From Microbacterium testaceum StLB037 (GTDB lineage: Bacteria > Actinomycetota > Actinomycetes > Actinomycetales > Microbacteriaceae): DNA of 64,000 nucleotides. Numbering within the stretch: the stretch's first letter is position 1; each line of letters opens with the position of its first letter. The stretch spans positions 2,914,001 through 2,978,000 of the forward strand of contig NC_015125.1 in NCBI RefSeq assembly GCF_000202635.1, in the 5' to 3' direction. The position numbers and the translations under genes are program-made. The notes under the pieces were generated by a model. That model had not been told where the DNA came from and did not search any database. It saw only the letters and a program-made list of their open reading frames with translations. Positions 3,231 through 10,351 of this stretch are shown one piece after another.

Positions 3231-4292
3231 ATGAGAAATCGCAGGACAGTCGACCCGTTCGTCGCGGCGACCGCCCGTCGGATCGATTCGGCGGCTCGCG
3301 GGGACGGCCCCGCATCCCGCGGACCGCGGCGCCCGTCGAGCGATCCGGTTGCGCGCCGCGAGGACGCGCGGCGACAGGATGCCATCGCCTTCGCTGCGAT
3401 GCGGATAAGTGCCCCGTCGGTGGCTGTGGAAGAGCACGTCCTCCCCGTGGCGCCTCACCCGGACGCGCGGCTCCGCGTCTACTGGCCCACGGAAGAACCG
3501 CTCGACGCGTCCTCCGTGGAGAAGGTCCCGATCCTCGTGTACTTCTTCGGCGGCTCGTTCACCGTGGGCGGGATCGACTGGGTCGGTCTCGACGCCATGT
3601 ACCGGGCGCGGGCGTCGGATGCCGGGGTGATCGTCGTCGCCGGCGAGTACTCCCTCGCTCCGGAGGTCACGTATCCCGCCCAGCCCGAACAGTGCTGGGC
3701 GGTCCTCGAATGGACCGTCGCGCACGCCGCGGCCATCGGGGGAGACGCGAGTCGGGTAGCGATCGGGGGAGCGTCGGCGGGGGCGAACCTCGCCGCGGCC
3801 GTCGCGCTCATGAACCGCGATCGCAGCGCTCATCCGCTGCGTCTGCAGATCCTGGAAGTGCCGGCCCTGGACCTGACGGGCTCCCACCTCGATGCGCGAG
3901 CGGTTTCACCGCTGCTGCCCGGGTTCGTGGTGCGCCGCCTTCTCCGCCCGATCGTCCGCGACTATCTCGGCGCCGACAGTGCACGAATCGCCGGCCTCGA
4001 TCCGTACGCGTCACCGATGCTCGCGTCGGATCATTCGGGTCTCCCGCCCGCACTCATCCTGACCGCGGAACGCGATGTGCTCCGCGGCGATGGCGAGGCC
4101 TACGCGCGCGTGCTCTCGGCATCCGGTGTTCCCGCCACCTGTGTCCGCTACCTCGGACAGGACCATGGATCAGCCGGATACCGCGGTCTCAACCCGGCTG
4201 CCGATCACGCCCACCGGCAGGTCGTCGCCACGCTCCGGACGCTTCACGACGATCCCGTCGACTACTCGGCGGCTCTCGGGGTATCGGCCTGA
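3231..4292 (+). CDS. Alpha/beta-hydrolase fold esterase (HSL-type)
   Basis: A 353-aa serine hydrolase of the hormone-sensitive-lipase/acetyl-esterase class. The nucleophile elbow is GGASAGANL, the acid is in AERDVLRGD and the histidine in GQDHGS. The usual HGGG oxyanion motif is altered: the sequence reads YFFGGSF, with Phe where His is normal. The ATG at 3231 is chosen because of the GGAAGAGAGGAG ribosome binding site. The stop overlaps the next start (TGATG), so translation of the two esterases is probably coupled. As first gene of an operon ending in an MFS exporter/importer, it probably deacylates a small ester or acetylated sugar. The substrate is unknown. Confidence 0.85.
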   Translation: MRNRRTVDPFVAATARRIDSAARGDGPASRGPRRPSSDPVARREDARRQDAIAFAAMRISAPSVAVEEHVLPVAPHPDARLRVYWPTEEPLDASSVEKVPILVYFFGGSFTVGGIDWVGLDAMYRARASDAGVIVVAGEYSLAPEVTYPAQPEQCWAVLEWTVAHAAAIGGDASRVAIGGASAGANLAAAVALMNRDRSAHPLRLQILEVPALDLTGSHLDARAVSPLLPGFVVRRLLRPIVRDYLGADSARIAGLDPYASPMLASDHSGLPPALILTAERDVLRGDGEAYARVLSASGVPATCVRYLGQDHGSAGYRGLNPAADHAHRQVVATLRTLHDDPVDYSAALGVSA

Positions 4293-8546: not shown

Positions 8547-9119
8547 ATGACTCCCGAGGACCCCCAGGCACCCACGGCGAAAGGCCGGCGATCCCGCGAA
8601 TCGATCCTCCGCGCGGCCGCCGCGCGCTTCGAAGCCGACGGCTTCGACCGCACGACTGTTCGGGGGATCGCGAAGGACGCCGGCATCGACGCGGCGATGA
8701 TCGTCCGCTACTTCGGAAGCAAGGAGAGCCTCTTCCTCGCCGCGACCGCGATCGATCTCGAGTTGCCGCGCCTGGACACCGATCCCGAGGGCGGCCCGGG
8801 GTACGCCCTCGCGCGACACGCGATCGCGCTCTGGGAGAGTGAGACTCCCGGACGAGCGCTTCGCATCCTGCTGCGGGCTTCCGCGCAGGACGCGGATGCG
8901 GCGGACCGGGTGAAAAAGGTGTTCACGACGCAGGTCTTGCCGTTTCTCTCCGGAAAAGGGGAGCGTTCGCCCACGCATGCCGGCCTCGTCGCCTCGCAGA
9001 TCCTGGGGTACGCCTTCGGTCGCTACGTCCTCGGGCTGGAGCCCCTTGTCGGTGTCGCCGACGACGACGCGGCGCGCCGACTCGGCGCCGCCCTTCAGGC
9101 CGTGATCGACACTCCGTGA
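8547..9119 (+). CDS. TetR/AcrR-family transcriptional regulator
   Basis: A 190-aa repressor with the N-terminal TetR HTH (SRESILRAAAARFEADGFDR, then TTVRGIAKDAGI and IVRYFGSKESLF, about residues 14-60) and a variable C-terminal ligand domain. It is divergent from the FAD monooxygenase and most likely represses it and itself. The start is probably leaderless: TAAAAT at 8535-8540 lies 6 nt before the ATG and no Shine-Dalgarno sequence is present. The ligand is unknown; an aromatic or antibiotic-like substrate of the oxygenase is the simplest guess. Confidence 0.9.
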   Translation: MTPEDPQAPTAKGRRSRESILRAAAARFEADGFDRTTVRGIAKDAGIDAAMIVRYFGSKESLFLAATAIDLELPRLDTDPEGGPGYALARHAIALWESETPGRALRILLRASAQDADAADRVKKVFTTQVLPFLSGKGERSPTHAGLVASQILGYAFGRYVLGLEPLVGVADDDAARRLGAALQAVIDTP

Positions 9120-9169
9120 TGCCCGGACATCCCGTCGCGCGGGCGCGCATCGGGCGGTAGTGTTCCTCC

Positions 9170-9208
9170 ATGCGTACCCTGACGACGTTCTGGTGGCGGC
9201 TGCAGTAG
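9170..9208 (+). CDS. trpS leader peptide (MRTLTTFWWRLQ)
   Basis: A 12-codon peptide with tandem Trp codons (TGG TGG at 9191-9196) ends in TAG inside the first arm of an attenuator and precedes the tryptophanyl-tRNA synthetase gene. TAGTGT at 9158-9163 lies 6 nt before its ATG, so the peptide itself is probably the first codon of a leaderless mRNA. Its role would be sensing charged tRNA-Trp: a ribosome stalled at the Trp pair would select the antiterminator. It parallels the leader described for the inducible tryptophanyl-tRNA synthetase of Streptomyces coelicolor. Confidence 0.85.
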   Translation: MRTLTTFWWRLQ

Positions 9209-9275
9209 CAGCCAGGTGACGCATGTTCGCGGGCTGCACGGCAGCTCGCGCCCCGCAGGTCTTCCCGTGCAGCCC
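9198..9275 (+). promoter_or_regulatory. Transcription attenuator of trpS
   Basis: Four alternating segments are visible. (1) GGCTGC 9198-9203, within the leader peptide end. (2) GCAGCC 9208-9213. (3) GGGCTGCACGG 9231-9241. (4) CCGTGCAGCCC 9265-9275. Pairing 1:2 permits the perfect 11-bp 3:4 hairpin; pairing 2:3 (GCAGCC with GGCTGC) prevents it. The 3:4 hairpin lacks a long U-run, as is common in actinobacteria. Confidence 0.8.
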
Positions 9276-9298
9276 TCTCGACCGGAGGACTCGCACTC

Positions 9299-10351
9299 AT
9301 GGACTCATTCGCCGCGACCCAAGCCCGAATGGCCGACCTCGACGACCGCATCCGCGCCGCGCCGAGTCGCTTCCGCGTGCTCACAGGGGAGCGGCCCACG
9401 GGGCGTCTTCACCTGGGCCACTACTTCGGGACCCTGTCGGAGCGAGCCGTGCTCCAATCCCGGGGAGTCGAGGTCTTCCTCGTGCTCGCGGACTACCAGG
9501 TCATCACCGACCGCGACACCCTGGAGAACGTCGCGGACAACGTGGGGGACATCGTCCTCGATTACCTCGCGGCGGGGCTCGACCCTCTGGGGACGACGAT
9601 CTTCCCGCACTCCGCCGTGCCGTCCCTCCATCAGCTTCTGCTCCCGTTCCTGAGCCTGGTGACGGAGGCGGAGCTGCATCGGAATCCCACGGTCAAAGCA
9701 GAGACCGCCGCCTCGGGCCGCGCCCTCAGCGGACTGATGCTGACCTACCCCGTCCATCAAGCCGCCGACATTCTCTTCTGCAAGGGCAACCTGGTCCCGG
9801 TCGGAAAAGACAACCTTCCCCATGTCGAGCTGACGCGCGTCGTCGCACGGCGGTTCAACGAGAGGTTCGGACCCGTCTTCCCCGAGCCGGAACCGCTCGT
9901 CACGACCTCGCCGGAGGTGCCGGGCGTGGACGGACGCAAGATGTCGAAGAGCTACGGCAACGCGATCGCCCTGGGAATGACCGAGGACGAGACAGCGGCC
10001 GTGATCCGCCGCGCGCGAACCGATGGAGAACGCCGGATCACTTTCGATCCTCCGCGGCGCCCGGGAGTCTCCGCGCTTCTCACGACGATCTCCCTGTGCA
10101 CCGCGACGCCGCCGGAGATGATCGCGGACGAGATCGGCGATCGCGGCAGCGCCGAACTGAAACGCCGGGCAACGGATGCCGTGAACGCTCGGTTCGCGGA
10201 GCACCGGCGCCGTCGGGCTGAGCTCGGGGCCGACCCCGAGGTCGTCGATTCCGTCCTTCGTTCCGGGATCGAACGGGCGAGGGAGATCGCGGATCGCACG
10301 CTCGACGAGGTTCGCGAGGCGATGGGAATGCACTACCTGCGACGGCCCTAG
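9299..10351 (+). CDS. trpS: Tryptophanyl-tRNA synthetase, attenuator-controlled
   Basis: A 350-aa class I synthetase that charges tRNA-Trp. The HIGH-type motif is GRLHLGHYFG (residues 39-48) and the KMSKS loop is GRKMSKSYGN (about 216-225). The TrpRS-typical TYPVHQAADI is present. A good GGAGG ribosome binding site precedes the ATG. The Trp-Trp leader and attenuator upstream indicate induction when charged tRNA-Trp runs low. Such regulated copies are often a second trpS, and some confer resistance to indolmycin-type inhibitors; whether this strain has another trpS cannot be seen here. Confidence 0.92.
   Translation: MDSFAATQARMADLDDRIRAAPSRFRVLTGERPTGRLHLGHYFGTLSERAVLQSRGVEVFLVLADYQVITDRDTLENVADNVGDIVLDYLAAGLDPLGTTIFPHSAVPSLHQLLLPFLSLVTEAELHRNPTVKAETAASGRALSGLMLTYPVHQAADILFCKGNLVPVGKDNLPHVELTRVVARRFNERFGPVFPEPEPLVTTSPEVPGVDGRKMSKSYGNAIALGMTEDETAAVIRRARTDGERRITFDPPRRPGVSALLTTISLCTATPPEMIADEIGDRGSAELKRRATDAVNARFAEHRRRRAELGADPEVVDSVLRSGIERAREIADRTLDEVREAMGMHYLRRP

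Follow-up and report, generated by a model that had tools for sequence, protein, structure and literature searches.

What does a tryptophan leader peptide do for the gene behind it when the RNA between them carries no recognizable terminator? The question arises in the 64,000-nucleotide stretch of Microbacterium testaceum StLB037 DNA that was analyzed here as a whole (the window), where a short open reading frame with two adjacent Trp codons precedes trpS2, a gene for an auxiliary tryptophanyl-tRNA synthetase (TrpRS) with a Shine-Dalgarno (SD) sequence GGAGGA at 9284-9289 and a start ATG at 9299. A sequence-only reading of this locus had described a complete attenuator, consisting of a peptide with tandem TGG codons, a TAGTGT box 6 nt 5' of its ATG, and segments 1 to 4 with the possible pairings 1:2, 2:3 and 3:4, the last over 11 bp. 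These elements are all in place (Table 1), but that reading overlooked a hairpin 3:3', a stem 0:0' over the leader's own start codon and a sequestor of the trpS SD/start region, all three of which coevolve. Our preferred reading, to which we would assign a probability of a little under 0.6, is that the leader acts as a translational attenuator that reads Trp codons on a probably leaderless mRNA. The analysis is computational throughout.

Table 1. Features of the trpS2 leader and gene, numbered from the first nucleotide of the window.
Feature	Position	Strand	Basis
-10 box TAGTGT (TAnnnT)	9158..9163	+	read in sequence; 6 nt 5' of leader ATG
Leader peptide MRTLTTFWWRLQ (ATG 9170) and stop TAG (9206-9208)	9170..9208	+	WW/WWW/WTW peptide in 46/46 distinct leaders
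Tandem TGG Trp codons of leader peptide	9191-9196	+	sequence
Segment 0 (9170-9175 and 9178-9181), opening codons of leader including its start codon, partner 0'	9170..9181	+	swap test z -8.6, 0/5000
Segment 1 GGCTGC, partner 2	9198..9203	+	sequence; 1:2 almost invariant
Segment 2 GCAGCC, partner 1 or 3	9208..9213	+	sequence; 2:3 in simulated stalled state
Segment 0', 9213-9216 with 9178-9181 and 9219-9224 with 9170-9175	9213..9224	+	swap test
Segment 3, 9228-9237 to 3'; GGGCTGCACGG 9231-9241 to 4	9228..9241	+	folding, swap test, pair counts
Segment 3' GCAGCTCGCG, closing strand of the 3:3' hairpin	9241..9250	+	z -5.2 (0/5000); 97.8% of cells paired
Segment 4 and flank, CCGTGCAGCCC 9265-9275 to 3, or stretch to trpS SD/start region	9258..9278	+	folding, swap test, pair counts
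Region sequestered in fold X, SD GGAGG 9284-9288 through start codon 9299-9301 and codon 2	9284..9305	+	4tail:SD z -6.1, 4head:AUG z -4.0
trpS2, auxiliary tryptophanyl-tRNA synthetase, 350 aa	9299..10351	+	TIGR00233, PF00579

The trpS2 protein scores 236.6 bits against TIGR00233 (cut-off 176.75), carries a PF00579 match and, among solved structures, comes closest to 1yi8 and then to 2a4m, entitled "Tryptophanyl-tRNA synthetase II". The suspicion that the genome holds a second trpS is borne out by a genome search, which places that copy at 672537-673544 with 34% identity to trpS2. The two enzymes differ in their motifs: ADYQVIT and GERPTG of trpS2 correspond to VDLHALT and GMQPSA of the housekeeping copy, and the histidine at the first of these sites presumably matters for indolmycin. 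From the motif differences and the similarity to TrpRS II, it is plausible that the trpS2 enzyme tolerates such inhibitors.

A search of 366 Microbacterium genomes for trpS2 (E 1e-90 or better) returned 49, of which 46 share one build of the leader region, with 46 distinct leader sequences. The 52 loci behind them also included four identical copies from Microbacterium sp. No. 7 (G231) and two loci that repeat named records; these six were left out. Two of the other genomes (L023 and L153) have another WWW leader with a different compact hairpin, and the last (L154) has a partial trpS match from residue 74 with no leader seen; all three stand outside the 46-leader set. The leader peptide is therefore not peculiar to the window: a WW, WWW or WTW leader is found in 48 of the 49 Microbacterium genomes with trpS2, the 49th being the partial match, and in each of the 46 distinct leaders it is a peptide of 11-16 aa whose remaining residues vary. 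The upstream scan covered 400 nt per locus and open reading frames of 5-45 codons with at least 2 Trp codons, with loci reported where the match reached at least 200 bits, and 20 further loci, 8 of them named non-Microbacterium records, were inspected by eye. Elsewhere in the order, among the genomes sampled, the trpS2 type is the sole trpS in 10, none of which has a WW leader within 340 nt (one, L017, has a WW open reading frame at -341), and stands beside a second trpS in 7, of which 5 have the WW leader, the other two having a single-Trp leader recognized by eye (L019) or none (L015). With 5/7 beside a second trpS against 0/10 alone, the leader tends to accompany the spare copy.

These counts bear on the idea that the leader is a conserved element that senses no amino acid and serves, say, to keep expression constitutively low or to give the 5' end a stable structure. 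The idea has a precedent in the Streptomyces coelicolor ilvB and leuA leaders, for which excerpts of PMC1262725 describe codon changes that were without effect or inconsistent with classical attenuation. Here, however, the Trp codons (WW, WWW or WTW) are kept in 46/46 leaders while other leader residues vary, and outside the genus the WW leader follows the two-trpS genomes and is missing from the 10 trpS2-only ones, which makes a leader indifferent to tryptophan very improbable.

If the peptide is read, the question becomes how a ribosome gets onto it. A TAnnnT box ends 6 nt (28 leaders) or 7 nt (17 leaders) 5' of the leader ATG in 45 of the 46 distinct leaders, the exception being L010 with TACGGC in its place, and just one further TAnnnT turns up when the 60 nt upstream of each of the 46 are taken together. 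Predicted anti-SD binding averages -1.7 kcal/mol at the leader ATG against -6.9 kcal/mol at trpS. The spacing of the -10 box, together with the anti-SD binding, implies a transcript that begins with the leader ATG or immediately beside it, and we accordingly rate the leaderless initiation proposed from the window alone as probable on the strength of the TAnnnT spacing. Leaderless leader peptides are documented for Streptomyces lividans, including one that precedes trpS without a U-rich stretch (excerpts of PMC8079986), and the trpL transcript of Sinorhizobium meliloti has the start codon of its Trp leader peptide at the very 5' end (excerpts of PMC7298713), so that the leaderless aspect would not be new.

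The mutually exclusive pairings 1:2, 2:3, 3:3', 3:4 and 4:SD are possible by sequence in the 46 leaders, and constrained folding resolves them into two alternative folds. Fold X combines the 3:3' hairpin with a downstream hairpin in which segment 4 lies on the trpS SD/start region, and fold Y has 3:4, mostly enclosing 3':3''. Fold X is the stabler by a mean of 7.2 kcal/mol over the 46 leaders and by 0.8 kcal/mol in the window leader. Pairing 3:4 can form at 11 of 11 positions in 35/46 leaders and at at least 9 in 46/46 (G-U allowed). The leader folded as a whole is no stabler than its shuffles (z -1.04, 38/200). A search of positions 8700-9600 against Rfam gave no match above threshold, the one sub-threshold match being DUF3800-VI on the opposite strand (E 0.57).

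Support for these folds comes from comparison among relatives. We used an alignment-free swap test, which sets a leader's own pairing energy against that of segments drawn from different leaders in 5000 permutations and ignores relatedness. Across the 46 leaders, 0/5000 permutations was obtained for each of 0:0' (z -8.6), 4tail:SD (-6.1), 3:3' (-5.2) and 4head:AUG (-4.0), with weaker values for 3':3'' (z -2.7, 22/5000) and 3:4 (z -2.3, 78/5000). Helix 1:2 gave no signal of coevolution (4737/5000), being nearly invariant and too conserved to test. Five control pairings gave 1471, 4992, 3874, 3918 and 4250 of 5000; the control 3:SD (4992/5000) is worse than the cross pairs, with z 2.8, which shows that calibration of the test is imperfect. 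Pair counts were taken from alignment A3 of the 46 leaders, which is fitted to a model and leans towards structure. In it, 3:3' and the sequestor together have 89.8% of cells paired against 87.3 in shuffles (0/500), 41 cells with changes on both sides against 15.6 (0/500) and a covariation of 0.192 against 0.143 (0/500), with the number of covarying pairs (67/500) and of pair types (202/500) no higher than in shuffles. In some clades, altered trpS codons 2-4 accompany an altered segment 4 (GUCCGUG:CAUGGAC, GGACUCCGU:AUGGAGUCC, CGUCGUG:CACCAUGACG). The SD/start region of trpS is thus paired in one of the two folds with comparative support, apart from the sequestor columns 51:96, which cannot pair in 23/46 leaders, and we regard an SD/start-site sequestor of trpS as well supported.

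Pairing 3:4 presents a different picture, in that 97% of its cells pair across the 46 leaders and its covariation is not higher than in shuffles (494/500). Its best support comes from columns 58 and 59, which vary in 8 and 14 of the 46 rows and yet can pair with segment 3 in 46/46; these columns have no partner in the consensus sequestor, although fold X of the window leader itself pairs them. The sequence-only reading had taken 3:4 for a transcription terminator, and its conservation, together with its being favored (0.73) when the untranslated leader of the window is folded at equilibrium, is what that proposal has in its favor. Judged by the usual form of an intrinsic terminator, a GC stem and then a U-run, neither 3:4 nor 3:3' qualifies. 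The 10 nt that follow in the window read UCUCGACCGG for 3:4 and CCCCGCAGGU for 3:3', with a U-run in neither, and over the 46 leaders the 10 nt after 3:4 contain UUU in 5 and at least 4 U in 10. Moreover, in the alternative fold it is strand 4 that lies on the trpS SD/start region and coevolves with it, and over the 46 leaders 3:4 is seldom favored in the stop state, where a terminator should form (0.05 at equilibrium; above 0.5 in 3/46 simulated leaders). A terminating 3:4 is therefore improbable, and the pairing is better read as an anti-sequestor.

If segment 4 is shared between segment 3 and the trpS start site, then a ribosome on the leader peptide could decide between the two. Transcription would begin at or beside the leader ATG, and a ribosome would load onto the 5' AUG as it emerges. 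With charged Trp-tRNA available, this ribosome would get to the stop codon, segment 2 would be covered or taken by segment 1, and segment 3 would immediately fold with 3', leaving segment 4 free to pair with the trpS SD/start region and hold the gene OFF. A ribosome stalled on UGG would instead cover segment 1, so that 2 could capture the emerging 3 and 3' would fold elsewhere; segment 4 could then pair with 3 in place of the SD, turning the gene ON. A handover of segment 3 from 2 to 4 is plausible within this model. Stem 0:0', once made, would shut the start codon of the leader itself, so that a given transcript would be read about once. The direction of the switch, its kinetics and an output at translation rather than at termination are thus predictions of the model, built upon pairings that are conserved and, for 0:0', 3:3' and the sequestor, coevolving.

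Equilibrium folding of blocked states gives a mean SD pairing over the 46 leaders of 0.82, 0.81 and 0.81 (untranslated, stalled and stop), with 3:3' predominant even in the stalled state (0.85). In the window leader, the corresponding SD pairing is 0.70, 0.69 and 0.79, and 3:4 goes from its untranslated value to 0.85 stalled and 0.18 at stop. Since SD pairing at equilibrium is on average unchanged, we turned to a simplified simulation of co-transcriptional folding, coded for this analysis with ViennaRNA energies and heuristic barriers. It depends on footprint and speed and serves as a test of plausibility rather than as proof. In the stop state, 3:3' exceeded 0.5 in 42/46 leaders; with the ribosome stalled at the first Trp codon, 3:3' did so in 5/46, 2:3 in 29/46 and 3:4 in 9/46. 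At stop, segment 4 was paired with the SD at a mean of 0.73 and with the AUG at 0.45; stalling changed these means to 0.57 (21 leaders lower, 5 higher) and 0.26 (26 lower, 15 higher), a merely partial release across the set. A first version with a longer footprint gave 3:3' in 11, 2:3 in 18 and 3:4 in 15 of the 46 when stalled, with the SD free at 0.27 stalled against 0.19 at stop and the AUG unchanged (p 0.63).

The window leader itself, when untranslated or with a ribosome at stop, reached 3:3' of 1.00 and SD pairing with 4 of 0.83-0.89 in the simulation, so that the untranslated transcript behaves as OFF. When stalled, 3:4 was 0.75-1.00 and SD pairing with 4 was 0.00-0.22 at 0.02 and 0.1 s/nt, and at 0.005 s/nt the switch was weaker, with 3:4 at just 0.22-0.36. 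AUG pairing with segment 4 rose on stalling in most settings, being 0.20-0.45 stalled (0.00 in 1 of 6 settings) against 0.13-0.21 at stop, and the AUG was less free stalled than at stop (0.40 against 0.67). Simulated stalling thus releases the SD of the window leader but not its AUG. Eight other leaders simulated at 0.005 and 0.1 s/nt had 3:3' of at least 0.77 in 16/16 stop runs and 3:4 above 0.5 in 4/16 stalled runs.

The same simulations lend weight to the main rival, transcription attenuation, in which 3:3' would act as a terminator without U or as part of a Rho-linked stop, 2:3 would be the antiterminator, and the SD hairpin would be a second layer or secondary; such a mechanism may also combine with translational control. 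Whether the ribosome stalls or stops sets 2:3 against 3:3' in most simulated leaders, as the 29/46 and 42/46 above indicate. The compact hairpin at the usual place of a terminator is 3:3', likewise without a U-run, and its position is that of a hairpin followed by UUU or UUUU in three relatives (L052, L061 and L163). Control of S. coelicolor trpRS1 has been reported as transcriptional attenuation, which also counts against a translational reading, and the S. lividans trpL2 leader before trpS, leaderless, with two hairpins and lacking a U-rich stretch, is described as terminating in excerpts of PMC8079986. Against this, the 10 nt after 3:3' contain UUU in 0/46 leaders and at least 4 U in 4/46 (mean U 0.15), and termination at 3:3' would leave the coevolution of segment 4 with the SD/start region unexplained. 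We consider transcription attenuation a serious possibility that is nonetheless distinctly less probable than the translational attenuator.

An RNA model, R1, built from the 46 Microbacterium leaders makes it possible to follow this type of leader beyond the sequences that define it. In the StLB037 genome R1 has one strong match, the window leader, the other three being at E 1.4 or above. Within the genus it matches in 46/366 genomes at E 0.01, and, compared by eye, 50 R1 places outside the G231 plasmids coincide with trpS2 places; 4 further places are on G231 plasmids, where trpS occurs twice in each of two plasmid records (one region inspected), and one extra weak match lies antisense to a leader. 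Over 249 genomes of the family (E at most 0.001), R1 finds its own genome and 11 others in nine genera, and 10 of these 11 matches directly precede trpS2 with a WW leader.

The eleventh lies in Agromyces sp. G08B096 (G641), where a leader MRNDRANWWRLQ with an R1 match (E 1.7e-6; L178 1430-2051) precedes a GNAT acetyltransferase gene, the only trpS of that genome being 38% identical. We considered GNAT as a second regulated function. The family sample contains 7 other genomes in which a GNAT protein is matched at E 1e-35 or better, none of them with a WW leader, and R1 over 60 Agromyces genomes gives one strong match, plus L219 (G675) at E 0.0099, so the locus may be a single gene replacement.

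Among 33 loci outside the 46, R1 matches at the leader only in L161 (E 0.12), on plasmid p1 of Rhodococcus sp. DN22. There (3340-3495) a trpS 69% identical follows a WW leader with TAGCCT six bases before its GTG, and inspection by eye shows segments 3 and 4 changed together (GCUGUAUG:CGUACAGC), an SD hairpin and the same layout, which suggests horizontal transfer of trpS together with its regulator. Two-trpS genomes of other families show 3:3'-like segments and an SD hairpin by eye at L016 (WW) and L019 (single Trp), with no R1 match.

Mobility is also apparent within Microbacterium. In G231, trpS2 and a WWW leader lie inside an IS21-type element beside istA and istB (L137-L141 and L162, on the chromosome and plasmid B). 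Five chromosomal copies of the element show no difference over 3905 nt, and the genome has nine copies of the leader and eight of istA, the latter all identical. In G113, locus L164 has the order istA - istB - trpS2, with istB in two frames and 72% nucleotide identity to the G231 element over 3362 nt. A fuller version of the translational attenuator would make of it a portable cassette, to judge by G231, G113 and the GNAT locus of Agromyces, and a terminator-free kinetic switch in which the 5' AUG can be read once, until 0:0' forms, and in which a stall lets segment 2 hold 3 and pass it to 4, freeing both the SD and the start codon of a spare TrpRS. In this complete form the proposal is tentative, and we think it rather unlikely that every part of it holds.

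If the translational attenuator is correct, an amino-acid attenuator would here act by exposing a start site rather than by termination, and its own leader start codon would be shut by pairing. It would turn on a spare and possibly inhibitor-tolerant tRNA synthetase only upon failure of the main one, and it offers a concrete case for attenuation in high-GC actinobacteria when the leader lacks a U-run terminator. Among titles found by searches of open-licence PMC papers, none concerns a start-site-sequestering trpS attenuator or this leader in Microbacterium. As far as the literature searched shows, two features are new, namely the coevolving sequestor of the SD/start region and the closing of the leader's start codon by a stem, both in leaders that span several genera within one family.

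The general kind is already known from S. coelicolor trpRS1, Streptomyces avermitilis trpS2 and S. lividans trpL2. In 2010 Vecchione and Sello reportedly described ribosome-mediated transcriptional attenuation of a trpS that is both auxiliary and antibiotic-resistant, and we take this gene to be S. coelicolor trpRS1. It resembles the Microbacterium locus in being an auxiliary trpS with ribosome stalling as the sensor, and differs in that its reported output is transcription attenuation, whereas in Microbacterium the coevolving target is the SD/start region and a U-run is lacking. The S. lividans trpL2-trpS arrangement shares a leaderless leader peptide before trpS and hairpins without a U-rich stretch; its peptide, however, has a single Trp codon (MMTRTCTQLWRAA), and the available excerpts of PMC8079986 mention no SD sequestor. 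An attenuator predicted before S. avermitilis trpS2, and the trp attenuators of actinobacteria, likewise have Trp codons and alternative hairpins (excerpts of PMC1262725). S. meliloti trpL is alike in a transcript that begins with the ATG of its Trp leader peptide and unlike in that it serves transcription attenuation of trpE(G), not of a synthetase gene (excerpts of PMC7298713). On the side of the enzyme, excerpts of PMC6804068 describe S. griseus SGR_3809 as an indolmycin-resistant auxiliary TrpRS. It too is a second trpS beside a housekeeping one, resistance being a feature of SGR_3809 that the Microbacterium enzyme may share to judge by its motifs. As for the output, the ileS T-boxes of actinobacteria also sequester an SD by RNA and release it on amino-acid limitation (excerpts of PMC1262725). 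A T-box, however, reads tRNA directly, whereas in Microbacterium the reader would be a ribosome on Trp codons. In the Bacillus subtilis system of the rtpA leader peptide, too, a start site is hidden by RNA and freed on amino-acid limitation.
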